Origin: Daphnia carinata
Taxonomy: Eukaryota > Arthropoda > Branchiopoda > Diplostraca > Daphniidae
NCBI RefSeq assembly: GCF_022539665.2
Contig: NC_081340.1
Span: 930,001-994,000, forward strand
Length of the DNA stretch: 64,000 nt
Direction of reading: 5' to 3'
The position numbers and the translations under genes were made by a program. This document shows, piece after piece, positions 1-52,031 of the stretch. Position 1 is the first letter of the stretch; every line of letters starts with the position of its first letter. Below the pieces are notes generated by a model. The model had not been told where the DNA came from. It ran no database searches and worked only from the letters and a program-made list of their open reading frames with translations.

Positions 1-3000
1 AGTGTTATAGAATCAGTTTCAATATCTACATTCAAACAGCATCAAATATACGTGTATTCAATGTGAATATAGTGTTATAGAATGAGTTTCAATATCTACA
101 TTCAAACAGCATCAAATATACGTGTATTCAATGTGAATATAGTGTTATAGAATCAGTTTCAATATCTACATTCAAACAGCATCAAATATACGTGTATTCA
201 ATGTGAATATAGTGTGATACAGTGAGTTTCAATATCTACATTCAAACAGCATCAAATATACGTGTATTCAATGTGAATATAGTGTTATAGAATCAGTTTC
301 AATATCTACATTCAAACAGCATCAAATGTATGTGTATTCAATGTGAATATAGTGTGATACAGTGAGTTTAAATATCTACATTCAAACAGCATCAAATATA
401 CGAGTATTCAATGTGAATATAGTGTGATAGAGTGAGTTTCAATATCTACATTCATTCAAACAGCATCAAATATACGTGTATTCAATGTGAATATAGTGTA
501 GAATAGAATCAATTTCATCTACATTCAAACAGCATCAAATATACGTGTATTCAATGTGAATATAGTGTTATAGAATCAGTTTCAATATCTACATTCAAAC
601 AGCATCAAATATACGTGTATTCAATGTGAATATAGTGTTATAGAATGAGTTTCAATATCTACATTCAAACAGCATCAAATATACGTGTATTCAATGTGAA
701 TATAGTGTTATAGAATCAGTTTCAATATCTACATTCAAACAGCATCAAATATACGTGTATTCAATGTGAATATAGTGTTATAGAATGAGTTTCAATATCT
801 ACATTCAAACAGCATCAAATATACGTATTCAATGTGAATATAGTGTTATAGAATCAGTTTCAATATCTACATTCAAACAGCATCAAATATACGTGTATTC
901 AATGTGAATATAGTGTTATAGAATCAGTTTCAATATCTACATTCAAACAGCATCAAATATACGTGTATTCAATGTGAATATAGTAGAATCAGTTTCATGA
1001 TCTACATTCAAACAGTATCAAATATACGTGTATTCAATGTGAATATAGTATGATACAGTGAGGTTCAATATCTACATTCAAACAGCATCAAATATACGTG
1101 TATTCAATGTGAATATAGTGTGATACAGTGAATATCAATATCTACATTCAAACAGCATCAAATATACGTGTATTCAATGTGAATATAGTGTTATAGAATC
1201 AGTTTCAATATCTACATTCAAACAGCATCAAATATACGTGTATTCAATGTGAATATAGTGTTATAGAATGAGTTTCAATATCTACATTCAAACAGCATCA
1301 AATATACGTGTATTCAATGTGAATATAGTGTTATAGAATCAGTCAATATCTACATTCAAACAGCATCAAATATACGTGTATTCAATGTGAATATAGTGTT
1401 ATAGAATCAGTTTCAATATCTACATTCAAACAGCATCAAATATACGTGTATTCAATGTGAATATAGTGTTTCATATCAATTCAAACAGCAATATCAATGT
1501 AATATTCAAACAGTGATCACATTCAAACAGCATCAAATATACGTGTATTCAATGTGAATATAGTGTTATAGAATCAGTTTCAATATCTACATTCAAACAG
1601 CATCAAATATACGTGTATTCAATGTGAATATAGTGTTACAGTGAGTTTCAATCTATCTACATTCAAACAGCATCAAATATACGTGTATTCAATGTGAATA
1701 TACATTCAAACAGCATCAAATATACGTGTATTCAATGTGAATATAGTGTGATACAGTGAGTTTCAATATCTACATTCAAACAGCATCAAATATACGTGTA
1801 TTCATTCAATGTGAATATAGTGTGATAGAATGAGTTTCAATATCTACATTCAAACAGCATCAAATATACGTGTATTCAATGTGAATATAGTGTTATAGAA
1901 TGAGTTTCAATATCTACATTCAAACAGCATCAAATATACGTGTATTCAATGTGAATATAGTGTGATAAATATAATGTATTCAATGTTTCATATCTACATT
2001 CAAACAGCATCAAATATACAAATATACGTATTCAATGTGAATATAGTGTTATAGAATCAGTTTTCAATATCTACATTCAAACAGCATCAAATATACGTGT
2101 ATTCAATGTGAATATAGTGTTATAGAATCAGTTTCAATATCTACATTCAAACAGCATCAAATATACGTGTATTCAATGTGAATATAGTGTGATACAGTGA
2201 GTTTCAATATCTACAGCATCAAATATACGTGTATTCAATGTGAATATAGTTTACATGAGTTTCATATCTACATTCAAACAGCATCAAATATACGTGTATT
2301 CAATGTGAATATAGTGTTATAGAATGAGTTTCATGATCTACATTCAAACAGTATCAAATATACGTGTATTCAATGTGAATATAGTATGATACAGTGAGTT
2401 TCAATGTCTACATTCAAACAGCATCAAATATACGTGTATTCAATGTGATATAGTGTTATAGAATCAGTTTCAATATCTACATTCAAACAGCATCAAATAT
2501 ACGTGTATTCAATGTGAATATAGTGTGATACAGTGAGTTTCAATATCTACATTCAAACAGCATCAAATATACGTGTATTCAATGTGAATATAGTGTTATA
2601 GAATCAGTTTCAATATCTACATTCAAACAGCATCAAATATACGTGTATTCAATGAATATAGTGTTATAGAGTGAGTTTCAATATCTACATTCAAACAGCA
2701 TCAAATATACGTATATTCAATGTGAATATAGTGTTATAGAATGAGTTTCAATATCTACATTCAAACAGCATCAAATATACGTGTATTCAATGTGAATATA
2801 GTGTTATAGAATCAGTTTCAATATCTACATTCAAACAGCATCAAATATACGTGTATTCAATGTGAATATAGTGTAATAGAGTGAGTTTCAATATCTACAT
2901 TCAAACAGCATCAAATATACGTGTATTCAATGTGAATATAGTGTTATAGAATCAGTTTCAATATCTACATTCAAACAGCATCAAATATACGTGTATTCAA

Positions 3001-3339
3001 TGTGAATATAGTGTTACAGAATCAGTTTCAATATCTACATTCAAACAGCATCAAATATACGTGTATTCAATGTGAATATAGTGTTATACAATGAGTTTCA
3101 ATATCTACATTCAAACAGCATCAAATATACGTGTATTCAATGAATATAGTGTTATAGCAGTTTCAATATCTACATTCAAACAGCATCAAATATACGTGTA
3201 TTCAATGTGAATATAGTGTTATAGAATCAGTTTCAATATCTACATTCAAACAGCATCAAATATACGTGTATTCAATGTGAATATAGTGTTATAGAATCAG
3301 TTTCATATCTACATTCAAACAGCATCAAATATACGTGTA

Positions 3340-5880
3340 TTCAATGTGAATATAGTGTTATAGAATCAGTTTCAATATCTACATTCAAACAGCATCAAAT
3401 ATACGTGTATTCAATGTGAATATAGTGTTATAGAATCAGTTTCAATATCTACATTCAAACAGCATCAAATATACGTGTATTCAATGTGAATATAGTGTTA
3501 TAGAATCAGTTTCAATATCTACATTCAAACAGCATCAAATATACGTGTATTCAATGTGAATATAGTGTTATAGAATCAGTTTCAATATCTACATTCAAAC
3601 AGCATCAAATATACGTGTATTCAATGTGAATATAGTGTTATAGAATCAGTTTCAATATCTACATTCAAACAGCATCAAATATACGTGTATTCAATGTGAA
3701 TATAGTGTTATAGAATCAGTTTCAATATCTACATTCAAACAGCATCAAATATACGTGTATTCAATGTGAATATAGTGTTATAGAATCAGTTTCAATATCT
3801 ACATTCAAACAGCATCAAATATACGTGTATTCAATGTGAATATAGTGTTATAGAATCAGTTTCAATATCTACATTCAAACAGCATCAAATATACGTGTAT
3901 TCAATGTGAATATAGTGTTATAGAATCAGTTTCAATATCTACATTCAAACAGCATCAAATATACGTGTATTCAATGTGAATATAGTGTGATATAGAATGA
4001 GTTTCAATATCTACATTCAAACAGCATCAAATATACGTGTATTCAATGTGAATATAGTGTTATAGAATCAGTTTCATGATCTACATTCAAACAGCATCAA
4101 ATATACGTGTATTCAATGTGAATATAGTGTTATAGAATCAGTTTCAATATCTACATTCAAACAGCATCAAATATACGTGTATTCAATGTGAATATAGTGT
4201 TATAGAATCAGTTTCAATATCTACATTCAAACAGCATCAAATATACGTGTATTCAATGTGAATATAGTGTTATAGAATCAGTTTCAATATCTACATTCAA
4301 ACAGCATCAAATATACGTGTATTCAATGTGAATATAGTGTTATAGAATCAGTTTCAATATCTACATTCAAACAGCATCAAATATACGTGTATTCAATGTG
4401 AATATAGTGTTATAGAATCAGTTTCAATATCTACATTCAAACAGCATCAAATATACGTGTATTCAATGTGAATATAGTGTTATAGAATCAGTTTCAATAT
4501 CTACATTCAAACAGCATCAAATATACGTGTATTCAATGTGAATATAGTGTTATAGAATCAGTTTCAATATCTACATTCAAACAGCATCAAATATACGTGT
4601 ATTCAATGTGAATATAGTGTTATAGAAGTGAGTTTCAATATCTACATTCAAACAGCATCAAATATACGTGTATTCAATGTGAATATAGTGTTATAGAATC
4701 AGTTTCAATATCTACATTCAAACAGCATCAAATATACGTGTATTCAATGTGAATATAGTGTTATAGAATCAGTTTCAATATCTACATTCAAACAGCATCA
4801 AATATACGTGTATTCAATGTGAATATAGTGTTATAGAATCAGTTTCAATATCTACATTCAAACAGCATCAAATATACGTGTATTCAATGTGAATATAGTG
4901 TTATAGAATCAGTTTCAATATCTACATTCAAACAGCATCAAATATACGTGTATTCAATGTGAATATAGTGTTATAGAATCAGTTTCAATATCTACATTCA
5001 AACAGCATCAAATATACGTGTATTCAATGTGAATATAGTGTTATAGAATCAGTTTCAATATCTACATTCAAACAGCATCAAATATACGTGTATTCAATGT
5101 GAATATAGTGTTATAGAGTGAGTTTCAATATCTACATTCAAACAGCATCAAATATACGTGTATTCAATGTGAATATAGTGTTATAGAATCAGTTTCAATA
5201 TCTACATTCAAACAGCATCAAATATACGTGTATTCAATGTGAATATAGTGTTATAGAATCAGTTTCAATATCTACATTCAAACAGCATCAAATATACGTG
5301 TATTCAATGTGAATATAGTGTTATAGAATCAGTTTCAATATCTACATTCAAACAGCATCAAATATACGTGTATTCAATGTGAATATAGTGTTATAGAATC
5401 AGTTTCAATATCTACATTCAAACAGCATCAAATATACGTGTATTCAATGTGAATATAGTGTTATAGAATCAGTTTCAATATCTACATTCAAACAGCATCA
5501 AATATACGTGTATTCAATGTGAATATAGTGTTATAGAATCAGTTTCAATATCTACATTCAAACAGCATCAAATATACGTGTATTCAATGTGAATATAGTG
5601 TTATAGAATCAGTTTCAATATCTACATTCAAACAGCATCAAATATACGTGTATTCAATGTGAATATAGTGTTATAGAATCAGTTTCAATATCTACATTCA
5701 AACAGCATCAAATATACGTGTATTCAATGTGAATATAGTGTTATAGAATCAGTTTCAATATCTACATTCAAACAGCATCAAATATACGTGTATTCAATGT
5801 GAATATAGTGTTATAGAATCAGTTTCAATATCTACATTCAAACAGCATCAAATATACGTGTATTCAATGTGAATATAGTG
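3340..5880. repeat. Homogenised type-A satellite core
   Basis: Roughly 36 consecutive monomers that are almost all identical type A. The few exceptions, for example near 3990, 4070, 4625 and 5115, differ by one or a few bases. Neighbouring stretches are more heterogeneous in sequence and length. This pattern is expected from recent local amplification or gene conversion. It is also the part of the array where assembly copy number is least reliable. Confidence 0.85.
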
Positions 5881-7418: not shown

Positions 7419-8398
7419 GTGTGATACAGTGAGTTTCAATATCTACATTCAAACAGCATCAAATATACGTGTATTCAATGTGAATATAGTGTTATAGAAT
7501 CAGTTTCATGATCTACATTCAAACAGCATCAAATATACGTGTATTCAATGTGAATATAGTGTTATAGAATCAGTTTCAATATCTACATTCAAACAGCATC
7601 AAATATACGTGTATTCAATGTGAATATAGTGTTATAGAATCAGTTTCATGATCTACATTCAAACAGCATCAAATATACGTGTATTCAATGTGAATATAGT
7701 GTGATACAGTGAGTTTCAATATCTACATTCAAACAGCATCAAATATACGTGTATTCAATGTGAATATAGTGTTATAGAATCAGTTTCATGATCTACATTC
7801 AAACAGCATCAAATATACGTGTATTCAATGTGAATATAGTGTTATAGAATCAGTTTCAATATCTACATTCAAACAGCATCAAATATACGTGTATTCAATG
7901 TGAATATAGTGTTATAGAATCAGTTTCATGATCTACATTCAAACAGCATCAAATATACGTGTATTCAATGTGAATATAGTGTGATACAGTGAGTTTCAAT
8001 ATCTACATTCAAACAGCATCAAATATACGTGTATTCAATGTGAATATAGTGTTATAGAATCAGTTTCATGATCTACATTCAAACAGCATCAAATATACGT
8101 GTATTCAATGTGAATATAGTGTTATAGAATCAGTTTCAATATCTACATTCAAACAGCATCAAATATACGTGTATTCAATGTGAATATAGTGTTATAGAAT
8201 CAGTTTCATGATCTACATTCAAACAGCATCAAATATACGTGTATTCAATGTGAATATAGTGTGATACAGTGAGTTTCAATATCTACATTCAAACAGCATC
8301 AAATATACGTGTATTCAATGTGAATATAGTGTTATAGAATCAGTTTCATGATCTACATTCAAACAGCATCAAATATACGTGTATTCAATGTGAATATA
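7419..8398. repeat. 280-bp higher-order repeat (C-B-A-B tetramer)
   Basis: Type-C monomers start at 7419, 7699, 7979 and 8259, exactly 280 bp apart, and between them the order is B, A, B. Three complete tetramers are followed by a partial fourth that breaks down when a B replaces the expected A and a strongly diverged monomer follows at about 8469-8538. This is a higher-order repeat in the sense used for centromeric satellites: the amplified unit was four monomers, not one. Confidence 0.9.
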
Positions 8399-11233
8399 GT
8401 GTTATAGAATCAGTTTCATGATCTACATTCAAACAGCATCAAATATACGTGTATTCAATGTGAATATAGTGTTATACAGTCAGTTTCAATATCTACAAAC
8501 AAAAATGATCAAATATACGAGTAATAAATCTGAATATAGTGTTATAGAATCAGTTTCATGATCTACATTCAAACAGCATCAAATATACGTGTATTCAATG
8601 TGAATATAGTGTTATAGAATCAGTTTCAATATCTACATTCAAACAGCATCAAATATACGTGTATTCAATGTGAATATAGTGTTATAGAATCAGTTTCATG
8701 ATCTACATTCAAACAGCATCAAATATACGTGTATTCAATGTGAATATAGTGTTATAGAATCAGTTTCATGATCTACATTCAAACAGCATCAAATATACGT
8801 GTATTCAATGTGAATATAGTGTTATAGAATCAGTTTCATATCTACATTCAAACAGCATCAAATATACGTGTATTCAATGTGAATATAGTGTTATAGAATC
8901 AGTTTCATGATCTACATTCAAACAGCATCAAATATACGTGTATTCAATGTGAATATAGTGTTATAGAATCAGTTTCAATATCTACATTCAAACAGCATCA
9001 AATATACGTGTATTCAATGTGAATATAGTGTTATAGAATCAGTTTCAATATCTACATTCAAACAGCATCAAATATACGTGTATTCAATGTGAATATAGTG
9101 TTATAGAATCAGTTTCATGATCTACATTCAAACAGCATCAAATATACGTGTATTCAATGTGAATATAGTGTGATACAGTGAGTTTCAATATCTACATTCA
9201 AACAGCATCAAATATACGTGTATTCAATGTGAATATAGTGTTATAGAATCAGTTTCATGATCTACATTCAAACAGCATCAAATATACGTGTATTCAATGT
9301 GAATATAGTGTTATAGAATCAGTTTCAATATCTACATTCAAACAGCATCAAATATACGTGTATTCAATGTGAATATAGTGTTATAGAATCAGTTTCATGA
9401 TCTACATTCAAACAGCATCAAATATACGTGTATTCAATGTGAATATAGTGTTATAGAATCAGTTTCAATATCTACATTCAAACAGCATCAAATATACGTG
9501 TATTCAATGTGAATATAGTGTTATAGAATCAGTTTCATATCTACATTCAAACAGCATCAAATATACGTGTATTCAATGTGAATATAGTGTTATAGAATCA
9601 GTTTCATGATCTACATTCAAACAGCATCAAATATACGTGTATTCAATGTGAATATAGTGTTATAGAATCAGTTTCATGATCTACATTCAAACAGCATCAA
9701 ATATACGTGTATTCAATGTGAATATAGTGTTATAGAATCAGTTTCATATCTACATTCAAACAGCATCAAATATACGTGTATTCAATGTGAATATAGTGTT
9801 ATAGAATCAGTTTCAATATCTACATTCAAACAGCATCAAATATACGTGTATTCAATGTGAATATAGTGTTATAGAATCAGTTTCATGATCTACATTCAAA
9901 CAGCATCAAATATACGTGTATTCAATGTGAATATAGTGTTATAGAATCAGTTTCATGATCTACATTCAAACAGCATCAAATATACGTGTATTCAATGTGA
10001 ATATAGTGTTATACAATCAGTTTCAATGATCTACATTCAAACAGCATCAAATATACGTGTATTCAATGTGAATATAGTGTTATAGAATCAGTTTCATGAT
10101 CTACATTCAAACAGTATCAAATATACGTGTATTCAATGTGAATATAGTGTTATAAGTCAGTTTCAATATTCAAACAGCATCAAATATACGTGTATTCAAT
10201 GTGAATATAGTGTTATAGAATCAGTTTCATGATCTACATTCAAACAGTATCAAATATACGTGTATTCAATGTGAATACAATGTGATACAGTGAGTTTCAA
10301 TATCTACATTCAAACAGCATCAAATATACGTGTATTCAATGTGAATATAGTGTTATAGAATCAGTTTCATGATCTACATTCAAACAGCATCAAATATACG
10401 TGTATTCAATGTGAATATAGTGTTATAGAATCAGTTTCATGATCTACATTCAAACAGTATCAAATATACGTGTATTCAATGTGAATATAGTGTTATAGAA
10501 TCAGTTTCATGATCTACATTCAAACAGTATCAAATATACGTGTATTCAATGTCAATATAGTGTTATAGAATCAGTTTCATGATCTACATTCAAACAGTAT
10601 CAAATATACGTGTATTCAATGTGAATATAGTGTTATAGAATCAGTTTCATGATCTACATTCAAACAGTATCAAATATACGTGTATTCAATGTGAATATAG
10701 TGTTATAGAATCAGTTTCATGATCTACATTCAAACAGCATCAAATATACGTGTATTCAATGTGAATATAGTGTTATAGAATCAGTTTCATGATCTACATT
10801 CAAACAGTATCAAATATACGTGTATTCAATGTGAATATAGTGTTATAGAATCAGTTTCATGATCTACATTCAAACAGTATCAAATATACGTGTATTCAAT
10901 GTGAATATAGTGTTATAGAATCAGTTTCATATCTACATTCAAACAGCATCAAATATACGTGTATTCAATGTGAATATAGTGTTATAGAATCAGTTTCATG
11001 AATATAGTGTTTCATAATATAGATAGATCAGTTTCATGATCTACATTCAAACAGTATCAAATATACGTGTATTCAATGTGAATATAGTGTTATAGAATCA
11101 GTTTCATGATCTACATTCAAACAGTATCAAATATACGTGTATTCAATGTGAATATAGTGTTATAGAATCAGTTTCATGATCTACATTCAAACAGTATCAA
11201 ATATACGTGTATTCAATGTCAATATAGTGTTAT

Positions 11234-11632
11234 ATTAAATATGTTATATCTAATATAGTTCATTTAATAAAATACTACAACGGCCACACCAGAAATATTT
11301 ATTAGATTTTTCTTACTTTTTAGTGCATAAATAACTTTTCCAGTTGCACTCATGTTGTACTTGCCCATACAACTATCAGCAACGATTAACAAGCAAGTCT
11401 TACCATATCGGTAGCGCTCTAACCTGTGACACGGGTAGGCTTGTGTTTGATTCTCCGTGGCTACATTTCTTCTGAGGTTTTTAATAATTATTCTATGAAA
11501 GAATTTTTGGGAAGAAAACAATTACTGGTGTTTAGGGTAATACTACTGAAATGGCAAATAATGGTAGTTCTGACTTCCCAATTTTCACATGTGGTTTCAG
11601 TATTTCAGCCAGTCAGTATTTAGATCTTCATG
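11234..11632. repeat. MULE-1 left terminal inverted repeat
   Basis: Reverse complement of 16395-16793 with no mismatch noticed on reading. The outermost ~40 bp (ATTAAATATGTTATATC onward) also resembles the core of the foldback repeat at 55563-55602. The TIR contains GTTTGATTC and GGTAGCGC, which resemble tRNA B-box and D-arm motifs, but no cloverleaf forms. Open frames of 65-85 codons appear at both TIRs because the repeat itself happens to be open; they are not called as genes. Confidence 0.9.
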
Positions 11633-20155: not shown

Positions 20156-21820
20156 AGCAAGAAATTGGACTTCCCGAAAAAGAAGGAAGCAATTGTAAAC
20201 GCGAAAAAGTATACTGATTTGTCTGAAAATCGTTTAAGTCATTGACTGTAGCTGCACGTGACGGCGATAAAGATCTAGCCATGTTCGAATTAAATATGGG
20301 GAATTTCAAAGTTCGCTGTGGATTCTGAGGAAGTTCTGGAATGCTACCCTAAATTGACTGATGCCCTCTAGTATCTCTTCCGGTTGGCTGGAGGGGTGGA
20401 TGTGTGGGTAGAATTGACTGATTGACTGTCTGCAACGTCGGTGTCTTCTGCGTGTCCTTCTCTTCTTTGGAGTGTTTTCCGACAGTGGCGATGTTTGTTG
20501 GATCGGTGTGGCTTGTTGTTGTGTGTTGTTCGTTTGTATGCACAACAGCGCTTGTCTCAATTGTTTTTCCGTTTGCGGGATTATTGGCTTGATGTCCCTC
20601 GCCTGCTGTGCGAAGAATGGGTTGTTGGCTTCCGGAAAATTGTTCAGTTTGTCCAAAAGGAATAAAATTTCCGGCAGGAACACCTGCAAATTGTTGATTA
20701 GCTCTAGTTTCTCTAAGTATGGCGCTAGGTTGGCCACGTCTTTCAGGAATGTTCGCTGTGCCGCCAGTAAGATTTCTTATAGATGAAGTGATGTGTCGGT
20801 CACCACGGTGATTATTTCCACGTATCTGCCGTCCTCGTCTCGGTCGGTGATGTCCCGTCTCGGAACGAACCCGAACAGTTCCCGCTCTCTTGCTGGTGTG
20901 ATCTCTTGTAGATCTATTATGTTGCAAATTTGTCCGTGGAGGCAAGTCAGAACCTGTCTCGCGTGCCACGGGAAAATTTCCTTGAGCACTGTCACGATTT
21001 CCTCTGTCTGCTTCTTCGTCTTCTTTGTGATCGGTCCACTGGCTTTCACTTCCAGAATGGATGTCAGATACTTCAGGAGAGTCGTCGGTTGCTTCCAGTC
21101 CGTCTGCGTTGGCTGTTCCACGTGGTAATTCCTCTGAATGTCGAACTGGACAAGGTGATCCCAGATTTTCGGGTCGCTCGACTGAAAGTCCGCCTCCCTC
21201 TCCTTGAGGCTTCGGATGGCTAATAGTAGGAATGGCAGCTGGCTTTTCAGTGTCTGAAAGATGATGTCCTCGTTCTTCTTGACTTCTCGCAGAAGATGCT
21301 TGAGACTCGCCTCGAGCTGTTCTTCCATTGGTTGCCTTCTTTTGCGAAAAAAGACTTGAAACGGTGGTCGAAAAACGTTTGGTGGGGGAAGTTTGTTGCC
21401 AAACAGATTTTCTTTTCGGTGAAAGACGGTCTACTAATTGGGCTAGAAGGGAGGGTGACTTCCTAACGGTCGAGGTTTTATCCGTGTGTTGGGTCTGAGG
21501 TTTGCGAACGAAATGTCTATTCCTGGTACCAACTCATACGCAGAATTCGACCTTAATTTCCTTGTCTGAGAACTATCTGGAATTGCCCGTGGTTTTAATA
21601 CAGGAGATGCGGATTTCTTAATAGCGTCTCTCTGTCTTCTTGACGTTTTACACCCAGTAAACGTATCAGAAGTAGTAGGCTAAGTAGTGGCTAACTTTTC
21701 AAAATTTATAGCTCTCGCTACAGATTCGTCAATTCGTACAACTGGTTCAACGGAAATTTGAGAGGCGGACACAGAAGTACGGGAAAGTGTAGGCTTACGT
21801 AGAAAAATATTATCAGTCAT
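20156..21820 (-). pseudogene. Family A gag, N-terminal region (copy 1)
   Basis: Starts with ATG at 21820 (MTDNIFLRKPTLSRTSVSA), 35 nt downstream of the LTR. The gag frame is hydrophilic and low-complexity (Gln, Asn, Thr, Gly and charged residues) through DRLSPKRKS, GSESQWTDH and TEQFSGSQQP, then enters the capsid start FSRLQLLPSFSG near 20190. Lesions: a TAG near 21684, a frameshift near 21510 and a TAG at 20349. Where copy 3 has lost one T at the capsid start, this copy keeps it, so here the disordered region and the capsid are in one frame. That shows the disordered frame is the true gag frame. Confidence 0.7.
20306..21328 (-). CDS. Overlapping ORF in gag region (copy 1), helical protein
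   Basis: A second frame inside the gag region, beginning MEEQLEASLKHLLREVKKNE at 21328 and ending HSEL at 20306, about 340 codons, interrupted once by TAA at 20777-20779. It is predicted to be largely helical, with charged amphipathic segments and the motifs LPFLLLAIRSLKEREADF, FGFVPRRDITDRDEDGRYVE and PEILFLLDKLNNFPEANNPF. The same frame is open in copy 3 (50354-51085) and 45 of the first 60 residues are identical by hand count. The gag frame over the same bases shows about 40 of 65. A 6-nt length difference keeps both frames. No family recognised. Start context CCAATGG is the same in both copies. Confidence 0.6.
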
Positions 21821-21854: not shown

Positions 21855-22681
21855 TGTAACGCATCTTCCCGTGTGGGAAGACTGACGAATTTCAGACAAT
21901 AAAGAATAAAAAGAATAAAAGAAAAAATGAATAAAAGAATAAGAGAATAAAAGAACTAAAAGAACTCAGAGGCGTTGTACCCACAATGACGACTATATTT
22001 GTCTTAGTTTAAGCATGTAAAATACAAAGATGTTTTGGATAAAGACATAAGAGAAAGCTATTGAATAAAAAGGGAGACAGAAAGTAAAACGGGATAAGTG
22101 TAGTTAGAGCTTACCGCGGTAGCGCGAGCTGAATAAGAGAGTAGATGTAAGATGAAGACGAGGTGTAACACAACCCGTCGGCACGTCGTTAAAAACAAGT
22201 TACAAGAATTGAACACTCACTTCAACACGAGACAAAGATCAATTCTCAAACACAATATTAAAATAAGAGAAGGCACTTAGCTGAATCAGAACCTGACCGT
22301 TAGCCTCAGATACACGTCGTTAACTGACTTTCTTCAGGTCTTGAGTTCATCAAGAAACCTCGCATATTGGACAATGATTAATTGCTGCGCAATTAATTGT
22401 CACCAATACATGAAATTTGATATGGCGCGATGATGGCGCAATGATGAGAAATGCTTGATTCCGCCAATCAAAGATGTTGTTACAAGTGGCTTTATGCCGA
22501 TGAAATATGATCAGACAGTGAGCAGGTGTTGATGTAGGTTACTCTGCTGCGTATGTGTTACGGTGCAATATTATAATGGCGCAGTTATACAGTTGCGCAA
22601 TTCATAGTGTTTATATGTGTTTAATAAGCATATATTGACAAGAAATATAAAATGGTTAATATATGTATTGACTTCGTTACA
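21855..22681 (-). repeat. Family A 5' LTR (copy 1)
   Basis: Read on the minus strand it begins TGTAACGAAGTC (at 22681) and ends GATGCGTTACA (at 21855), 827 bp. Near its end it has a hairpin (plus strand CTTCCC-GTGT-GGGAAG, about 21865). The primer site follows as TTGTGGCAGCGATC, one base off the TGGTGGCAGCG of copies 2 and 3. Confidence 0.75.
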
Positions 22682-23181
22682 GTAGTGTGATACAGTGAGT
22701 TTCAATATCTACATTCAAACAGCATCAAATATACGTGTATTCAATGTGAATACAGTGTGATACAGTGAGTTTCAATATCTACATTCAAACAGCATCAAAT
22801 ATGCGTGTATTCAATGTGAATGTAGTGTTATAGAATCAGTTTCATGATCTACATTCAAACAGCATCAAATACAAGTGTATTCAATGTCAATATAATGTGA
22901 TAGAATCAGTTTCATGATCTATAGTCAAACAGTATCAAATATACGTGTATTCAATGTGAATATAGTGTGGTACAGTGAGTTTCAATATCTACATTCAAAC
23001 AGCATCAAATATACGTGTATTCAATGTGAATATAGTGTTATAGAATCAGTTTTATGATCTACATTCAAACAGTGTCAAATATACGTGTATTTAATGTGAA
23101 TATAGTGTTATAGAATCAGTTTTAATATCTACATTCAAACAGTATCAAATATACGTGTATTCAATCTGAATATAGTGTTAT
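22682..23181. repeat. 70-bp satellite block
   Basis: Seven diverged monomers of mixed B and C type between family A copy 1 and BEL-1. The last bases GTTAT form one side of the BEL-1 target-site duplication. Confidence 0.95.
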
Positions 23182-24671: not shown

Positions 24672-26313
24672 TTACGCTGTGGAAGATTCCTTTTTTTCTT
24701 CCTTTTCGTAAACTTGTTGTTCTTTTGCGTCAACCATGATACACAATTTTGCCAACGCCCGAATACATGGTTTTGGATGGTTGCTAAGCTTTACCTTTAC
24801 CACTCGAACGACATTATCCGCAGCACTGGGAATAACTTCCAACACTTTGCCCATCGGCCACTGCCCACGCAAAGTATTTGGTTCGACGGCAAGCACTAGA
24901 TCTCCCACGGTGACGTTAGGCCTATTTTCTTGCCATTTTCTTCTCTCGGTTAAGTGAGAAACGTATTCACGTAGCCATCTGTTCCAAAAGTGTTGAAGGA
25001 TGGCTTGACTTTGCTGAAACTGCTTGTTGGTTACGTTCATGTCTTCCACATCGGCCAGTTGTAGGGGCACGTACGGCCGCGCTCCACCGTATAGAAAATG
25101 GTTCGGTAGTTAGGGGGTCCGGGTCTTCTGGATCCATACTCAAATGAGTTAACGGCCGGGCATTTAACAAAGCTGCTATTTCAGCGATCAAGGTTCGTAG
25201 CACTTGGTCCGTAACCAGGCAATTACCTATGGTGGTTTTCATTGCCCGTTTGCAGGATTGTACAATCCTCTCCCAAACACCACCGAAGTGAGGCCCATGG
25301 GGTAGAGAGAAGTGCCACTCAATTTGTTGACAAGCCATTACTGTTTGAAGTTCCTGGTGCTTGGTAACAAGTTCTTCTAGGGCTTGTCGCTGCTCTTCCT
25401 CGGCGGCGACAAAGTTTGTCCCATTGTCGCTATAAACGACCATCGGCTTTCCGTGTAAGCTAACAAAACGGGAGAAGCAGAGTAGAAACTCTTCCATACT
25501 GAGCCCGTTGGCCACTTCCAGGTGAACTGCTCGCGTCGTAAGGCACGTGAATAGGCTGACCCAACGTTTTTCGTGTCCTCTTCCCCTTCCACCAACTCGT
25601 ACGGTCAAGGGTCCAAAGTAGTCGATCCCTGTGTACGTGAACGCAGGTAGATGGGGTGTTAAGCGATGGACTGGTAGTAAAGCCATCAACGGAGGACTAG
25701 GTTTTGCTGACGTGCGCTTGCAAGGGCAGCAGTTGTTGATGACCGATTTTACCACCTTGCGTCCGGAAAGTATCCAAAAGCGTGAACGGAGGTCCGTCAG
25801 CAATCTCTCAGTCTTGACGTGCATGTTTCTAACGTGATAATCCCAAATTATCCTTTTCGTTAAGAGTTGAGATGCTGGTAGAAGTATGGGGTGCTTGGCT
25901 GCATAGTCGATCGGCGCTTGAAGAATACGTCCGCCAATTCGCATCTGTCCAGCTTCATCCAAGAAGGGCTGGAAGGTGCGAAGTTTGGATCTGAGTGGTA
26001 ATTCCAGATCCTTGCGAAGGGCGTAGACTTCTTCTGCAAAGGCCAATTTTTGCGCGCGCACGATGCATTTCGTCAACGATGTTACCATTTCTTCTAACGT
26101 TAGCTCTCCGACCATGGGTTTTTCGTCACGTAGTTTTGCTTTAGCGTTGTTGGCAAATCTTGTACTCCAGGCCAGCACTCGTTGAATTTTCACCAAGCTG
26201 GATAAACGTGCGACGCATCGGTCGATGACATGATTCTCGTCTTCCGTTTTGACTACCAAGACGTGGATTACATTTACATCTCGTTCTTCTGGCTCCGTAA
26301 TCTCTTCCCAAGT
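24672..26313 (-). pseudogene. BEL-1 integrase and C-terminal DUF5641-like domain
   Basis: Continuation of the polyprotein after the TAA at 26314. It contains RLLTDLRSRFWILSGRKVVK, the zinc-binding CCPCK pair, the core motifs TGIDYFGPL (first Asp), VVYSDNGTNF (second Asp) and GGVWERIVQSCKRAM (Glu), then LLNARPLTHLS. A frameshift near 25090 separates this from the C-terminal domain, which reads PLQLADVEDMNVTNKQF and RKWQENRPNVTVGDLVL and ends at 24672. The catalytic triad is present in sequence but the protein is broken. Confidence 0.85.
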
Positions 26314-27888
26314 TTACCACTCTGAGGGGTCTAGGTTCAGGAACGAAAGTCCTCGACGGAAGTAGACCAATTCATTGACGTCCTTTGGATCAATACCCCT
26401 GCTGCAGAGATCCGCTAGGTTTGAATCTCCGGCAACATAACGCCATTGTCGACGAGCCGTGTTTCGGGGTATTTTTCCAATGCGGTTGTTGACGAAGACT
26501 TCAAACCGACAAGTTTTGGAATGGATCCACCGCAACACCGTTTGTGAATCTGTGTGGAAGGTGACTTGCCGCAAATCGATCTCCAGCTCACGGCAAATCG
26601 TGATGGCGATGTTGAGACCTTCTACGGCAGCTTGTAGCTCCAAACGTGGAATCGTGAGACCTTTCACCGGCGTGACGTGTGTTTTTGACATGACGAATGA
26701 GACGTTGACGGACTGGTCTTCGAATACAGTGCGGAAGTAGGCTACTGCTCCGTATCCTTTAAGGCTTGCATCCGTGAAGACGTGGAGGTGCTGTAGGGTC
26801 CAACGTCCTAGTTTGAAACGGAAGCATCTCGGCACTGCAAGCGATTCCAAATTTTCCAGATGGTCGTACCAGCAATGGAAGCGTAGACTCAATGTTTCCG
26901 GTACGACGTCGTCCCAACCGATCCGCTCTTCGTTGGTCCAGATATCTTGGAGTAGAGACTTCATTACGAAGACAACAGGCGCGACTAGTCCTAACGCGTC
27001 GTAGACGCTAGAGATTATGCTAAGGAAGGCTCGTTTCGTGAGAGTCACGTTGTTGGGCGGCTTCCGTATCTTGAACGTCAGCAGATCTCGTTCGCTGTCC
27101 CACATTACTCCCAGCGTTCTTTCGACGGGAAGTTTCTCCAAGTCCAGATCCAGAGTTGGTGACGCGAGGCCAAACTCTCGAAACGCAGCTATCACTGTTC
27201 GCGATGACGACGTCCATTTGGTCAAATTGAAGCAGCCTAACTGGAGAAGGGACTTCATTTGGTGGGAACGTTTAATGACCTCGTCTTCGGAGTCGAATGA
27301 GTCGAGATAATTGTCGACGTAGAAATTCCGTTGAACGCTTTCAGCTACGTCTGGAAACTGGCTGCAGTGGTCATCGGTCGTCCTGTTGAGGGCGAAAATG
27401 CAGCTCGTTGGGGAGGATATGGCTCCAAATACGTGAACCGTCATCTGGAACGTAAACAGAGCTGAAATACTGCCAGGCATCCGGTAGAGGAATCGGAAAG
27501 CTGCCTGGTCTTCTTCCGGGACTTTCATTTGATGGAACATTTTCTCAATGTCCGCTGCGACTGGTAAGAGGTTACGGCGGAAGCGGATGAGCACACCAAG
27601 CAGTCTAACGAGTAAGTTAGGGCCCCGAAGCAGGTTTTGATTTATCGATGTGCCACCAAACTCAGCAGCTCCATCGAATACGACACGAACTTTGGTCGAT
27701 GAGCTGGAAGGGCTCACGACCCCGGGCTTTGGTAGATACCACGTCTTGTTTGTCTCCGTCTGGGCTCCTTGGGTCGTTAAGAGTCGGGCATGTTTTAAGC
27801 CGATGTACTCCTTGACCACTGCATCGTACCGTTGGGCAAACTCCGCGTCTCGATGAAAACATCGTTCGAGGGCGTAGAGCCTCTTCAA
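26314..27888 (-). pseudogene. BEL-1 reverse transcriptase and RNase H
   Basis: A 524-codon open stretch. RT motifs: KVRVVFDGAAEFGG, LLPVAADIEKMFHQMKVPEE and FYVDNYLDSF (YVDN in place of YVDD, common in BEL/Pao) near 27315. RNase H: HVFTDASLKGYGAVAYF, LELQAAVEGLNIA and FHTDSQTVLRWI, then YVAGDSNLADLCSRG. It ends in TAA at 26314-26316, where the same frame continues into integrase, so this is a nonsense change. At its 5' end the frame is shifted relative to protease near 27895. Confidence 0.9.
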
Positions 27889-27895
27889 TGCAGAT

Positions 27896-28849
27896 TTCTA
27901 CTTCACCGGCCTCTAGTTGCCAGAACTTCTTCACCAGCTCGTTTAAGTCTTCGGGACGTTCCACGGTGGCCAGATGAGCGATGAACGGGCGTCCGTCTTG
28001 CGGTGGACCTGTTTGTCCACCCAAACCCCAGCCAAACGGCGTATTGAAGGCGATGGGCACAGTCGTTCCAGCCGGCGGCTTGATGGAAGCTACATGATCA
28101 TGGGCCTAAGCGACGTCGATTCCTATCAGCACGGTCACGTCCTCTTGTTGCACGGTCGGGACGTCAATACCATGTAGGTGTTTCCATGACTCCAACTGTC
28201 CAGGGTCGATCGGCGAATTCGGCGTCACCTTCAAATTGTCGACGGCGTAAGCGTGCTTGACTTCAAACTGGCTTTTACCATCACGAGATGTTAAGGTGAA
28301 GTTTACGGAAGCCGTCACGTTAGACGTGGCTCCGTCATACGAGACGACGTTGATGCGTTTGGATGGCCCAACGACTCCCAACTTTCTTACTAAGTCGCTC
28401 CTAATCAGCGTGGTGTCGCTTCCGGTATCCAGGAAACCGAAAGTGTCGACCCATGTTCCGCCAGCCCCAACAAGAACGGGTACAATCTTTAAATGTACAC
28501 GTCGTTTTACGGTTTCCAAGTGGGTCAAGGTACCCAGGAATGCTGTTGAAGGTGGCGCTGATGGAGCAGTTTGATCCGCTAGCCTCCTCAATGGGGTGAA
28601 TTCGGATCCATGAAGCAAGGTGTGGTGACGGGTTCCAGTACAATCAGCGATGGTACAGCTGACATTCCTGGGACATTCCTTGCGTTCGTGTTTTCCCGTA
28701 AGACAGAACAAACATCTTCCGGACTTCCGGAATACTTTCTCAGCCCTTTTCGTGGGTGTGAGAGACATGAAGACGGTGCAGGTTGAGAGATGGTGGCTCC
28801 TGCCGTTACATACAAAACATTTCCACCGTTCCGTCTTCTCGGCTTGCAT
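27896..28849 (-). pseudogene. BEL-1 zinc knuckles and aspartic protease
   Basis: Begins with Cys/His clusters (CFVCNGRSHHLSTC and CLFCLTGKHERKEC) that bind nucleic acid, followed by an aspartic-protease domain (TFGFLDTGSDTTLIRSDLV, near 28425; DUF1758-like) ending VLIGIDVA. A TAG at 28106-28108 interrupts it; the same frame then continues (FNTPFGWGLGGQTG) as the protease-RT linker until a frameshift near 27895. At the 5' side, frames change near 28850 relative to gag, consistent with a single-base indel because BEL elements normally use one long ORF. Confidence 0.85.
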
Positions 28850-30671
28850 CTTCCCCCGATGTTGATCGGCTCCTTGGAGGCATGGTTGCTGAAGATGTTG
28901 ACGCCGCTACTTTCGAACCTTCCATCGTCGATACGTGTCCAGTGGTCGACGTGTGTGGGAAGCTGGGTCTCTTGACGGGATTCCTTTCGTCGAACTTTAC
29001 ACCTTTAGACGTCGACGTGGGTAAAGACTCGAATACATTTTTTCCATGTTGCTTGCTCATGGATTTTAACGTTACCCAGTCGTCTAAGTCTAGGACATTC
29101 AGTTCTATGCCTGTCTTTTTTCGTTTCTCGTTCCACTTATCTTTTAGGTAAGGCGTCAATTTTGCTTCAAGGGCCATCAACGTTGTACGGCTGTCTGGCT
29201 CATGGGAGTACTTCGATTTTGAGAGCGTAGCTACAGCTCCGTGTAGACGGTTTGCGAAGGTCTTGAGGCTGGCAGCATCTAGGCTCTCAATGGCGGGACC
29301 TGTAGAAGGTCGTCGAGGTAAGGACATCTGATCTATAATTTCCATACGACCATACACCGCGTCCAAACGTTCCCGCACCACGGAGTACATCGTTCCATTG
29401 TTAAGACATTCACCGATTTCGTATCGTACATCTTCGGCTAGCAGCTCCTCCAACATAAAAAGAAGTACCGGAGAATCTTCATACTCTTCATACAAGGCCT
29501 GGAATTTGGCCTTGAATCGCGCGTAGTTCTTCGGGTTACTGTCAAATGGCTGGATCTTGAAGTTTGGAGGTTGCAGGCGACTGCAGCAGCTGCTATGAGG
29601 TCGATTGGCTTGACTGTGGGTGTTTGAACGTTCAGAATGGTCATCTTCGCCGTGATCCGTAGGGTCGCAGCTGGCCATCGCCCCTCGCCGCGGGTCTCGT
29701 AGAGATGCATCGGCGGCGACCAATTTTCTGCGATGTCGGACTGCATCTTCAATCGTTCGGAGGAGTGACAGGGTAGAAACGTCTTGACGAGTTGGTAAGA
29801 CTGGTGATCGCCCGGGAGGTCGTTGATCTTGAATCGTTCGTGATTGAACTTTTATGACGTCTACTTCCGTTCGAAGGTCTTCGATTTTGGCGTTTAGCTC
29901 CACCTTAACTGCATCAATTTTCTGATCTAACCCGTCCAACGTGTGGTGTGCTTCTCTGACTAGCGTATTGTTGGTCGCTATGTTTTGGGACGTGACTCTT
30001 GAGCTACCAATGAGTTTACTTAACTGTTCGCTCATGCTCCTTAACGCCTTATTGAGGGTTTCTGTGATGGAAGTTGTGTTTGCTTCCATCTGAGCCCTTG
30101 CCGTTTCCAACTTCAATTCTAGCTTCAGCATCTGTGCTTCAGTCTCCAACTCCCCTTGGGTTGATTGTTGGAGAAGGCTGACTGGTTTAACGTTGGTACG
30201 CCTCTTTCCAGATAACGTGGTACTACATGTAATATCCGAAGCTGATGTCCCGTTCGAGCTGACGAACTGATTTGAGGAAGTGGAGTAGCGACTTGCGAAT
30301 TTGATAATTTCAACGTGATCAGTTTCGAAGTCTACTTCCCACTTGTCACATACTTGACGTTGCTGCTCAGTGAGGTCGGATATACTTTCTGTATATTGGT
30401 TGTGAATGGCTTTAACTTCGTCGTAAATACGAATCAGTTCGTCACGCTATGCTGCTACTTGCAATTTCTTCAATCTGATGGCTCCCATCTTGTGGTCTTC
30501 CACAGCCTTTCTGAGTTGTGTCGTTAACTTCGTGTGGGCCGCCTCTCTCTTCCCACGTTTCTTCTTGAGATCGTTTTCGGGAAGTAATAGCCGTTCACTC
30601 TTCTGGCGTTCAGGTTTCGATGCTTCTACCATTGGGTTCGGGCCGTGTTCCCAAATGTGGCCAATTTCCAT
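28806..30671 (-). pseudogene. BEL-1 gag
   Basis: From ATG at 30671 (MEIGHIWEHGPNPMVEASKP) one frame runs to 28806, broken by TAG at 30447. Contents in order: a charged helical N-terminus (LKKKRGKREAAHTKL), a long coiled-coil stretch (EAQMLKLELKLETARAQM), a Ser/Pro/Arg-rich linker, and the BEL/Pao gag core (LQPPNFKIQPFDSNPKNY, RFKAKFQALYE, LDDWVTLKSM). The protein would assemble the virus-like particle. It ends just as the zinc-knuckle frame opens, with a 44-nt overlap of the two frames. Confidence 0.85.
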
Positions 30672-48692: not shown

Positions 48693-49053
48693 AATGTGAA
48701 TATAGAGTTATAGAATCAGTTTTATGATCTACATTCAAACAATATCAAATATACGTGTATTCAATGTGAATATAGTATGATACAGTGAGTTTCAATATCT
48801 ACATTAAAAAAGCATCAAATATACGTGTATTCAATGTGAATATAGTGTGATACAGTGAGTTTCAATATCTACATTCAAACAACATCAAATATACGTGTAT
48901 TCAATGTGAATATAGTGTGATACAGTGAGTTTCAATATCTACATTCAAACAGCATCAAATATAAGTGTATTCAATGTGAATATAGTGTGATAGAATCAGT
49001 TTCATGATCTACATTCAAACAGTATCAAATATACGTGTATTCAATGTGAATAT
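48693..49053. repeat. 70-bp satellite block, right end of the satellite domain
   Basis: Five monomers, B and C types. No satellite was seen to the right of 49053. Confidence 0.95.
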
Positions 49054-49859
49054 TGTGAACGAAGTCATCAAAATACAACTTTTAATTTTATTTTATCTTC
49101 ATTATTTGTTTTCATTATATTAAACTTATATACTATGTTTGTTATTCATTATCTTTAAAGTATATATTATAAATATAGTAATTCAAGTGTCAAAGACATT
49201 TCCTTGAATTCTATTTTTATATTATACTTTACATCCTGCTTGTTGCTGATTAGATGAGCTTGATGCGTAGAACATCCCGCCATACATTTCCGTGAATATG
49301 AAATGTTGCTGCGTGAGATATTCAGTAACTTATATCCGGAGCTCATCTGTCGGAAATGCTATGTTTCCCTCAAACATGTAAAATCTATAAAAGGATGCCC
49401 TTTTGTCCCCAAAAGTTCTTCAGTTCTCTTCAATTTTCTTCAGTTCTCTCACATTCTCTCTAGTTCCAGTTCTAGTTCTCATTTTTAGTACTACAAGTGC
49501 TGTTTAATTCCCCAAATCTAGTGAGTTCAATTTGTATCTTATTCAATAATTATCGTGAGTGCTTCTCATCGCTTCTTGTGCGACTGACAGCTCTATTATC
49601 TTTATTTTTCCCGTACAACATTTATCATCTCTATTCTATCTTCGCCACGGCGGTGACGGTAGGACTTAATTCGCATAACTCCATTTTGTATTTTCGTTTC
49701 CCATTTATGCCCTATAACTGTGTATTCTCTTATTATCCTTTTGGCCTATTAGAATAAAATATATTCGACATTGTAGTAACGCCTCCCGAGTTCATTTTTT
49801 TATTACAATTGGTCTTAAATAACGTAAAGTCATTCTTTCCAAAAGAAGAATGCTTTACA
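49054..49859 (+). repeat. Family A 5' LTR (copy 3)
   Basis: TGTGAACGAAGTC to GAATGCTTTACA, 806 bp. TATA box TATAAAA at 49386-49392, followed by repeated AGTTCT/CTTCAGTTCTC pyrimidine-rich motifs near the expected start site (49417-49470). Confidence 0.8.
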
Positions 49860-49893: not shown

Positions 49894-52031
49894 ATGACGG
49901 ATAGTATTTTTAGTAGTAGGCCTAAACTTTCTCGTTCTTCTGTATCCGCTACTACAAATCCTGTTAAACCAGTTATACAAATTGACGAAGCCGTAGCTAA
50001 ATCTCTTAATTTTGAAAAATCCTCCACTTCAAATCTAGCTGTCCTGATACATTTACGGGAAATAAGACTTCGAGAAGGGCAACAGAAGCTATTAGGAAAT
50101 CTTCCTCTCCTGTTTTGAAGCCTACAGCAATTTGAAATAATCCCCAGTTAAGAAAGTTAAGATCGAACTCTGCCTATGAGTTGGTGACAGGAGTAGACCT
50201 TTCAAACGTTCGTAAACCTCGAGCTAAAAGTAACGCTAACACCTCGACTGTAAGAAACTCTCCTTCCTTCCTAGCCAAATTAGTGTCCCATCTTTCACCC
50301 AAGAAAACCGTTTCCACAAACACTTCCCCAACAAACAAAAAAGAAGACAACCAATGGAAGACCAGCTCAACGTCAGCCTCCAGCATCTGTTTCAAGAGGT
50401 CAAGAAGAAACAGGACAGCATCTTCCATTTACCGAAATGCCAGCTACCGTTCTTACTGCTAGCCATCAAGAGCCTCAAGGAGAGGGAGAAGGACTTCCAA
50501 TCGAGCGACCCGAAAATCTGGGATCACCTTGTCGCGTTGATGCGCGACATTCAGAGGAATTACGACGCCGAAAAGCTAACACTAACGGATTGGAAACAAC
50601 CGAAGACGTTTCTGAAGTATCTGACATCTCTTCTGGAAGTGAAAGCCAGTGGACCGACCACGAACAAGACGAAGAAGCAGACGGAGGAAATTTTGACGAA
50701 GCACAAGAAAATATTCACGCGACACGCGATACAGGTTCTGACTTGTCTACACGGACAAATTTACAACATAATAGACCTGCAAGAGATCACACCAACAACA
50801 AAGCGGGAACTATTCGGGTTTGTTCCGAGACGGGACATCACCGACAGAGACGAGGACAGGAGATACGTGGAAATAATCACGATAGTGAGCAACACATCAA
50901 TTCATCTGGAAGAGATCTTGCTGGAGTCCCAACGAATGTTCCTGAAAGAAGTAGCCAACCTAGCATCGTACCTAAAGAACCTACAACTCATCAGCAACTT
51001 GGAGGTGCTACAGCCGGAAATTTTGTTCCTGTTGGACAAACTGAACAATTTTCCGGAAGCCAACAACCCATTTTTCGCACAGTAGGCGAGCGACATCAAG
51101 CCAATAATCACGCAAACGGAAATAAAGTTGAGATAATCGCTGACGTGCATACAAACGAGACCAACGCAACAGCAAAGCACGCCAATCCAACAAACATCGC
51201 CGCTGTCGGGAAGCATTCCGAAGAGGAAACGGTCACGCAGAAGAAACTATCGTTCCAATCAGTCACAAACTCTACACTGTCCTCGAATCCGCTCACTCAG
51301 CCAATCGGATATAACGCAAGAGAATCTAAGGCAATTACGAACGACACTTCAGAACACCCCCGAAATCCACAGCGAAGAACTTTAAATTTTCCAATATTTA
51401 ATTCAAACATGGCAGAATCTTGTTCTCCATCAAGACCGGCCACGGTCGATGATTTGAACGAGTTCCAAAATAATCAACATACCTTTTCCCGTTTACAGCT
51501 ACTTCCTTCTTTTCTGGAAATCCCCTTGTGTGTTTTGACTCCTGGTTAGAATCTTTTGAAAGTATAGTAGATGGGTCAGGTTGGTCTGAAAAGAAAACTA
51601 TTCAGATGTTAAGGGCAAAATTGGTTGATAAAGCTTTCTCGATCATACAGGCAACTTTGAAGGTTCTTCCTCACAACTATGCTCTGATTAAAGAATCTCT
51701 TCTTGATCATTTTCATGATGATGAAAATGCAGATTTTTATCAGAAGAAGTTTAATAAAGCTAAGCGTAAGCCAGGGGAAAACATTGTAGAATATGCTCAC
51801 CGTCTGCAGGAAATTTTCAAACGCGCATATCCTGTAGGCTATTCAGAAGCCTCTTTCGCTATAATTCTTATGCAGAAATTTATCGAGGGGCTGGATTCCA
51901 AATTACAATCGAAAGTTAAATATAAAGAATTCAAGAATTTTAATGATCTTATTTCGGCAACCCGAATGTATGCATTGCGTTTAGAAGCCATGGAAACGGA
52001 TAGGGAATACACGATTTTATTAGGGCAGTGA
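49894..52031 (+). pseudogene. gag: Family A gag (copy 3), N-terminal region and capsid
   Basis: ATG at 49894 (MTDSIFSSRPKLSRSSVSAT). After a frameshift near 50040 the next part reads TFTGNKTSRR and LRSNSAYELVTGVDLSNV. The main low-complexity frame (50284-51549) holds ENLGSPCRVDARHSEELRRR, GSESQWTDHEQDEEADGG and TEQFSGSQQPIFR. A 1-nt deletion near 51515, compared with copy 1, throws it out of frame with the capsid, which continues FSGNPLVCFDSWLESFES and FMQKF-type helices to 52031. Further lesions: TGA at 50133, a deletion of about 36 nt with frame change near 50310, and a frameshift near 52010. The whole N-terminal half is doubly coding with the next feature. Confidence 0.8.
50354..51085 (+). 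CDS. Overlapping ORF in gag region (copy 3), 243 aa
   Basis: Lies in the +1 frame relative to gag. Begins MEDQLNVSLQHLFQEVKKKQ with context CCAATGG and ends at TAG 51083-51085; copy 1 has CAG at that point and continues ~80 more codons. Predicted largely helical: LPFLLLAIKSLKEREKDF, KTFLKYLTSLLEVKASG, QVLTCLHGQIYNIIDLQ, ELFGFVPRRDITDRDED, PEILFLLDKLNNFPEANN. Differences from copy 1 are mostly conservative (K/R, I/V, D/E). No signal peptide or membrane segment and no recognised family. It could be an accessory protein overprinted on gag. Alternatively the open frame might persist by chance because gag composition limits stops, but conservation argues against that. Confidence 0.65.
   Translation: MEDQLNVSLQHLFQEVKKKQDSIFHLPKCQLPFLLLAIKSLKEREKDFQSSDPKIWDHLVALMRDIQRNYDAEKLTLTDWKQPKTFLKYLTSLLEVKASGPTTNKTKKQTEEILTKHKKIFTRHAIQVLTCLHGQIYNIIDLQEITPTTKRELFGFVPRRDITDRDEDRRYVEIITIVSNTSIHLEEILLESQRMFLKEVANLASYLKNLQLISNLEVLQPEILFLLDKLNNFPEANNPFFAQ

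Follow-up and report, generated by a model that had tools for sequence, protein, structure and literature searches.

Within a 64,000-nucleotide stretch of the Daphnia carinata genome (the window; C10:930001-994000 of the 108-Mb genome searched), two copies of a long terminal repeat (LTR) retroelement carry a second open reading frame (ORF), here termed frame A, inside gag and in its +1 frame. Comparison with related copies elsewhere in the genome makes it very likely that frame A is a real protein-coding gene of ~300-350 codons nested in the gag of Ty3/gypsy-type elements. The explanation that we favour overall, with a probability of about 0.88, is that this nested gene is real and arose by overprinting on an older gag; its translation would begin on the gag mRNA at the A ATG itself, and the product may be an accessory regulator that acts in the nucleus.

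A preliminary description of the window had proposed a genuine overlapping gene from these two copies. The proposal is supported by conservation across copies, by stop counts in shuffled sequences and by constraint measured with both frames taken into account, and it can be refined. The strongly constrained protein of the overlap is A, not gag. The gag ATG lies upstream of the overlap and A is fully nested; the start of gag is not inside the overlap. On comparative evidence the overlap is also old and not special to the two window copies. Finally, the last fifth of A is fast-evolving in comparisons within the lineages designated S.

Conservation of the nested frame

At least 41 genome matches to the copy 1 region were found; 39 loci were retrieved and, with copy 1 of the window, make up the 40 copies considered here. 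A further 11 A-bearing loci were added with their flanks. Frame A is open from its own ATG for 339-350 codons in 12 of the 40 copies (L009, L014-L017, L047, L023, L026, L029, L032, L033 and L035). Gag is also open, from its upstream ATG through the whole of A, in eight of the 12 (L014, L016, L017, L047, L023, L026, L032 and L035), and six of those eight have gag open for 866-933 codons. In a genome-wide search in which 118 of 221 candidates were scored, 78 A matches covered 285 residues or more, and 57 of them were stop-free by hand count. The idea that other copies of the family retain the frame thus holds for a large part of them, not for all. The A proteins of lineages F2 and F3 are 33-38% identical to that of L014 in alignments and 34-41% identical in the genome search. 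The gag cores of L051-L054 and L059 are 73-75% identical to the L056 core, and A is nested in the same gag +1 frame in these five loci.

Shuffle controls were applied to six of 15 excised A sequences, one per lineage, with 2000 shuffles each. Synonymous shuffling of the gag codons gave an average of 3.0-6.3 stops in frame A, which remained open in 0-1.6% of cases. Synonymous shuffling of the A codons gave 4.9-9.5 stops in gag, which remained open in 0-0.25%. The third frame of the overlap contains 19-23 stops. Both real frames are open beyond these controls, with one gag stop in L009, and the excess of open frame A over shuffled sequences, suggested as a check by the preliminary description, is therefore found. 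Among the 15 sequences, gag is stop-free across the overlap in 11, with one stop each in L009, L054 and L057 and three in L055. A chance open frame, produced by the skewed composition of gag, deserves hardly any credence. Gag does draw heavily on a small set of residue types here, and some shuffles of the outgroup described below leave as many as 277 codons open in the +1 frame, but the gag-synonymous shuffles keep that composition and still leave A open no more often than the 0-1.6% given above; the selection counts also reject it.

Selection in the two frames

Between L017 and L023, differences at gag third positions number 82/166 upstream of the overlap, 40/283 in its first 850 nt and 212/397 downstream, a drop with p 1e-15 against the upstream and p 3e-25 against the downstream sequence when sites are taken as independent. 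The A third positions are the most variable in the same 850 nt (86/283) but lag behind free third positions (p 4e-9), a lag to be expected if gag constrains them too. Compared in pairs, L009, L017 and L023 change most at gag third positions where the DNA is gag-only (0.32-0.53 per site). Within the first 850 nt of the overlap the rate at gag third positions is down to 0.07-0.17, and in 9/9 bins of the three pairs no codon position changes faster than the A third positions.

Ratios of nonsynonymous to synonymous change (dN/dS) were estimated over the first 850 nt by sorting the differences according to what they alter in gag and in A, with bootstrap intervals. Some sequences recur in more than one pair, and L051-L059, a tenth pair, differed too little to be informative. 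Seven S-lineage pairs give A a dN/dS of 0.17-0.29 and two F3 pairs 0.47-0.56; all upper bounds are below 1. The last fifth of A is constrained between L056 and L023, at 0.25 (0.10-0.51). Hence A evolves as a protein under purifying selection once the gag frame is accounted for, and the frame-specific constraint looked for at the outset is present.

Suppression of synonymous change in gag could also be caused by an RNA structure or packaging signal rather than by a second protein, and packaging signals are common near the gag starts of retroelements. This is very improbable here, because A proteins can be aligned at 33-41% identity, the differences track the codon periodicity of A across ~850 nt, and A is stop-free while the third frame has 19-23 stops.

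A different alternative makes A the sole protein of this region, with gag starting at an internal methionine close upstream of the gag core; the openness of the gag frame would then be a by-product. The gag frame is low-complexity in the overlap and has a dN/dS near 1 in several pairs, as this would predict. Nevertheless, it is improbable. Shuffles of the A codons predict 4.9-9.5 gag stops, where 0 are seen in five of six sequences and 1 in L009, and the upstream gag-only stretch has an excess of change at gag-frame third positions. Gag is open through the overlap and shows coding periodicity on both sides of it. Codon usage in the gag frame is also nearer to that of pol than A's is in 6/6 sequences: against the pol of L049, r is 0.11 to 0.47 for the gag frame and -0.14 to -0.31 for the A frame. 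The same comparison, as a single line of evidence, suggests that gag is the older frame and that A was overprinted on it, in agreement with the direction first proposed.

A nested frame in a more distant family

An outgroup family (L063/L064), with a gag core only ~38-39% identical, likewise bears a selected nested +1 ORF in gag, of 252 codons in L063. Its +1 frame stays open for up to 262 codons, whereas in shuffles the longest run averages 110 (P 0.0025). Fourteen of 47 matches are free of stops over 243 or more of the 251 residues; three of these 14 are identical. Differences at gag third positions go from 94/264 upstream to 32/252 in the overlap. The nested ORF has a dN/dS of 0.44 (0.27-0.71) and gag, in the same DNA, 0.67 (0.40-1.15). 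Similarity between this ORF and A is weak and colinear; it exceeds 150/150 column shuffles, but its hhalign probability is 2.6-3.8%.

Organisation of the element

The elements are arranged as LTR, leader, short upstream ORF (uORF), gag ATG, a gag-only stretch of 493-496 nt, the A ORF in the +1 frame, gag core and pol; where gag is intact its ATG is accordingly 493-496 nt upstream of the A ATG. The uORF has 15/11 codons (17/13 in L059) and ends in a stop that overlaps the gag start (ATGA). S and F3 loci retain it; in L014, L017, L032, L052, L056 and others it lies roughly 540 to 490 nt before the A ATG. The gag core is of the PNMA type, and a CCHC-like region was read by eye with it. Protease, reverse transcriptase (RT) and RNase H follow gag in L049 (4345-6810), and an integrase core lies downstream of RT in L048 (1711-3006). 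This gene order, gag-protease-RT-RNase H-integrase, is that of the Ty3/gypsy-type LTR retroelements. Paired LTRs are seen in a copy on C49 as matching stretches ~10.7 kb apart that differ at 4 of 577 nt. The LTR is at least 577 nt long, the outer end of the 3' LTR lying beyond the piece compared.

One copy (L062) has two ORFs after pol: 613-1968 (-), of 452 aa, env-like and with a C-terminal hydrophobic stretch noted by eye, and 3081-3659 (-), of 193 aa and highly charged. Neither, in this one copy, has a Pfam match at E 0.01.

The A protein

Profile searches of the A protein returned no described family, as had been supposed from the window alone. Its one database match is a Daphnia magna gene model, P0001 (OUZ56_012465), in which an A-frame stretch is joined to a gag-frame stretch; this is apparently an automatic prediction over one such element. 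Against the present genome the A-frame part of P0001 is 42-54% identical and the gag end up to 70% (80 of 353 candidates scored).

The product is predicted to be helical, with similar helices in two prediction runs, and the best model of the first run reached a predicted local distance difference test score (pLDDT) of 73.0 and a predicted template modelling score (pTM) of 0.69. The helical character expected earlier is thus reproduced, although confidence in the fold is unstable between models and runs. All 15 A proteins contain a 15-residue segment rich in arginine and lysine (R/K, 7-10 of 15), which hints at a nuclear or RNA-binding role. The basic tail could be a nuclear-localisation or RNA-binding signal. 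Helices and tail together lead us to propose that A is an accessory regulator in the nucleus, where it might act on element RNA or against host silencing; such a nuclear role is possible though doubtful.

Start of translation

Translation of A from its own ATG, without splicing, is probable. In four of six F-type loci (L052, L053, L054 and L059; not L051 or L061) the A ATG comes immediately after a stop codon, which excludes in-frame entry from upstream at those loci and makes the ATG itself the likely start. Most S copies have CCAATGG around the A ATG, and so, as the preliminary description stated, do both window copies. In lineage S2 no off-frame ATG lies between the gag ATG and A (P 0.009-0.028), and in the outgroup there is none across the 958 nt before the nested ORF (P 0.0004); both absences fit leaky scanning. 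Ribosomes might reach A by scanning through the gag start, or by reinitiating after the uORF whose end lies in the gag start codon; in the second case, those finishing the uORF would skip gag and resume further downstream.

Alternatively, A could be coding but be made as a fusion to N-terminal gag sequence, through splicing or a frameshift, and not from its own ATG. A T-rich tract, seen by eye ~15-35 nt before the A ATG in many S and F loci, would suit a splice acceptor region of this kind, and P0001 joins stretches of the two frames, albeit in what looks like an automatic prediction. Such a fusion is nevertheless unlikely. The stop abutting the A ATG in four of six F-type loci leaves no in-frame upstream entry there, no AG acceptor was found by eye at a constant place across lineages, and the T-rich tract is absent in L063/L064. 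The A ATG is present in 13/13 aligned A proteins, though these were selected to start there.

Several observations weigh against the favoured explanation of an overprinted gene read from its own ATG and encoding a nuclear regulator. The A ATG is altered in three of the 40 copies (L025, L037 and L045), and position -3 is C at the A start and A (adenine) at the gag start. Between one and four off-frame ATGs are kept in L009, S3, L056, L058, F2 and F3, where depletion is not significant (P 0.094 for L009, 0.20-0.31 for S3, 0.29-0.60 for F2/F3, 0.63 for L056 and 0.19 for L058). L052, L053 and L059 have three to four, one of which opens a 60-codon ORF in L059. Gag is weakly constrained in the overlap, with a dN/dS of 0.57-0.98 and an interval below 1 in two of nine pairs. 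In the last fifth of A constraint is not significant for S2-S3 (0.63, 0.28-1.22) or F3 (0.54, 0.13-2.48). The other four models of the first structure prediction had a pLDDT of at most 53.2, and the second run, with the F3 protein leading, gave a pLDDT of 46.2 and a pTM of 0.37. Finally, the basic 15-mer reaches P <0.05 against gag-synonymous shuffles in 4/15 proteins only (0.0095-0.476).

A broader scheme is rather unlikely. In it, these elements would belong to an invertebrate clade bearing env-like ORFs and an ancient, overprinted, helical and basic-tailed nuclear regulator, with the uORF setting its output against that of gag. The gene would predate the split between families whose gag cores are only ~39% identical, and A and the outgroup ORF would be one diverged gene.

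Relation to known systems

The Rev/Rex class of complex retroviruses comprises arginine-rich regulatory proteins with a helical part. To our knowledge their genes are not nested in gag. The A product would resemble them in its predicted helical part and candidate arginine-rich motif, and one copy of the A element has an env-like ORF; no sequence match between Rev/Rex and the A product was found.

RNA viruses provide familiar examples of overlapping genes in which one lies wholly within the other. The tombusvirus p19 gene, in a plant RNA virus, is nested in p22 and encodes a silencing suppressor with an alpha+beta fold (PMC11044054). Like A, it is a full ORF in another frame of an older gene, and its product is folded, as that of A may be; unlike p19, A is predicted to be helical and, although apparently the younger frame, is the more conserved. 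A common pattern is that the younger overlapping frame evolves more freely (PMC11044054). Here this pattern looks reversed, the apparently younger A being tightly kept while the older, low-complexity gag stretch yields.

Among LTR elements, the Drosophila MDG1 group (412, mdg1 and Stalker2) has accessory genes, sORF1 and sORF2, upstream of gag and of ~110/70 aa; sORF1 has a predicted helix-turn-helix and is located in a subnuclear compartment (PMC11952523). These resemble A as accessory proteins of LTR elements encoded near the 5' end of the unspliced RNA, but they lie upstream of gag and are short, whereas A has 300-350 aa and is nested in gag +1. Identity of A with sORF1 or sORF2 was ruled out by its position inside gag and its length of ~300-350 codons.

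The available part of PMC2996953, on LTR elements of Daphnia pulex, mentions no nested gene, and in the open-licence literature, among the matches listed, no LTR-retrotransposon gene nested in gag is described. A nested gene within the gag of an LTR retrotransposon offers a natural series for the birth and upkeep of an overprinted gene in a single genome, since many copies and several diverged lineages there make both measurable.

The copies in the window

Features of the two window copies are collected in Table 1. The lengths first given for frame A, about 340 codons with one stop in copy 1 and 243 open codons in copy 3, agree with those measured. Both copies are decayed, and gag is frame-broken in each. 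The copy 1 gag ATG is out of frame with the remainder of its gag, and the copy 3 gag core is in a different frame from the gag stretch preceding it; that core also matches Retrotrans_gag at 3.1e-04, short of that family's own cut-off.

Table 1. Features of the two element copies, in window positions
Feature	Position	Strand	Remarks
Copy 1 nested ORF (frame A)	20306..21328	-	341 codons, the last a terminal stop (read 21328 -> 20306); internal stop at codon 184; decayed
Copy 1 gag start codon	21818..21820	-	Context CCCACAATGA; 492 nt before the A ATG
Copy 1 short uORF, 15 codons	21817..21864	-	TGA stop overlaps gag ATG (ATGA); same in relatives
Copy 1 gag-frame open stretch, 206 codons	20349..20969	-	Overlaps A
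Copy 3 nested ORF (frame A)	50354..51385	+	243 open codons; stops at 244 and 261; terminal stop at 344
Copy 3 gag frame, 370 codons	50437..51549	+	Runs through and beyond the A ORF
Copy 3 gag core	51528..52031	+	Pfam PNMA 7.2e-06 (passes cut-off)
Copy 3 match to LTR-region query	49050..49589	+	87%; query from L026; C10:979050-979589

Between the two copies, 218 of 290 aligned codons are identical in A and 185 of 290 in the gag frame. Over the first 60 residues the identity claimed for A (45/60) was recovered, and that of gag is lower than claimed, at 36/60 instead of ~40/65. The 6-nt length difference (LVALMRD against LVQFD) is real; L009 (LVQLMFD) and L032 (LVALMRD) have the longer form, which points to a deletion in copy 1.

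A ~70-bp tandem repeat forms two similar arrays, at 8001-11234 and 22683-23178 of the window; the scan began at 8001 and the first array may start before it. Copy 1 has the second array close to its 5' end, on the upstream side; homology with L009 stops near 22666. Near copy 1 and on the same strand is a BEL/Pao-type element (24967-30149, -) with a Peptidase_A17 match at 1.3e-42 and a weak RVT_1 match.
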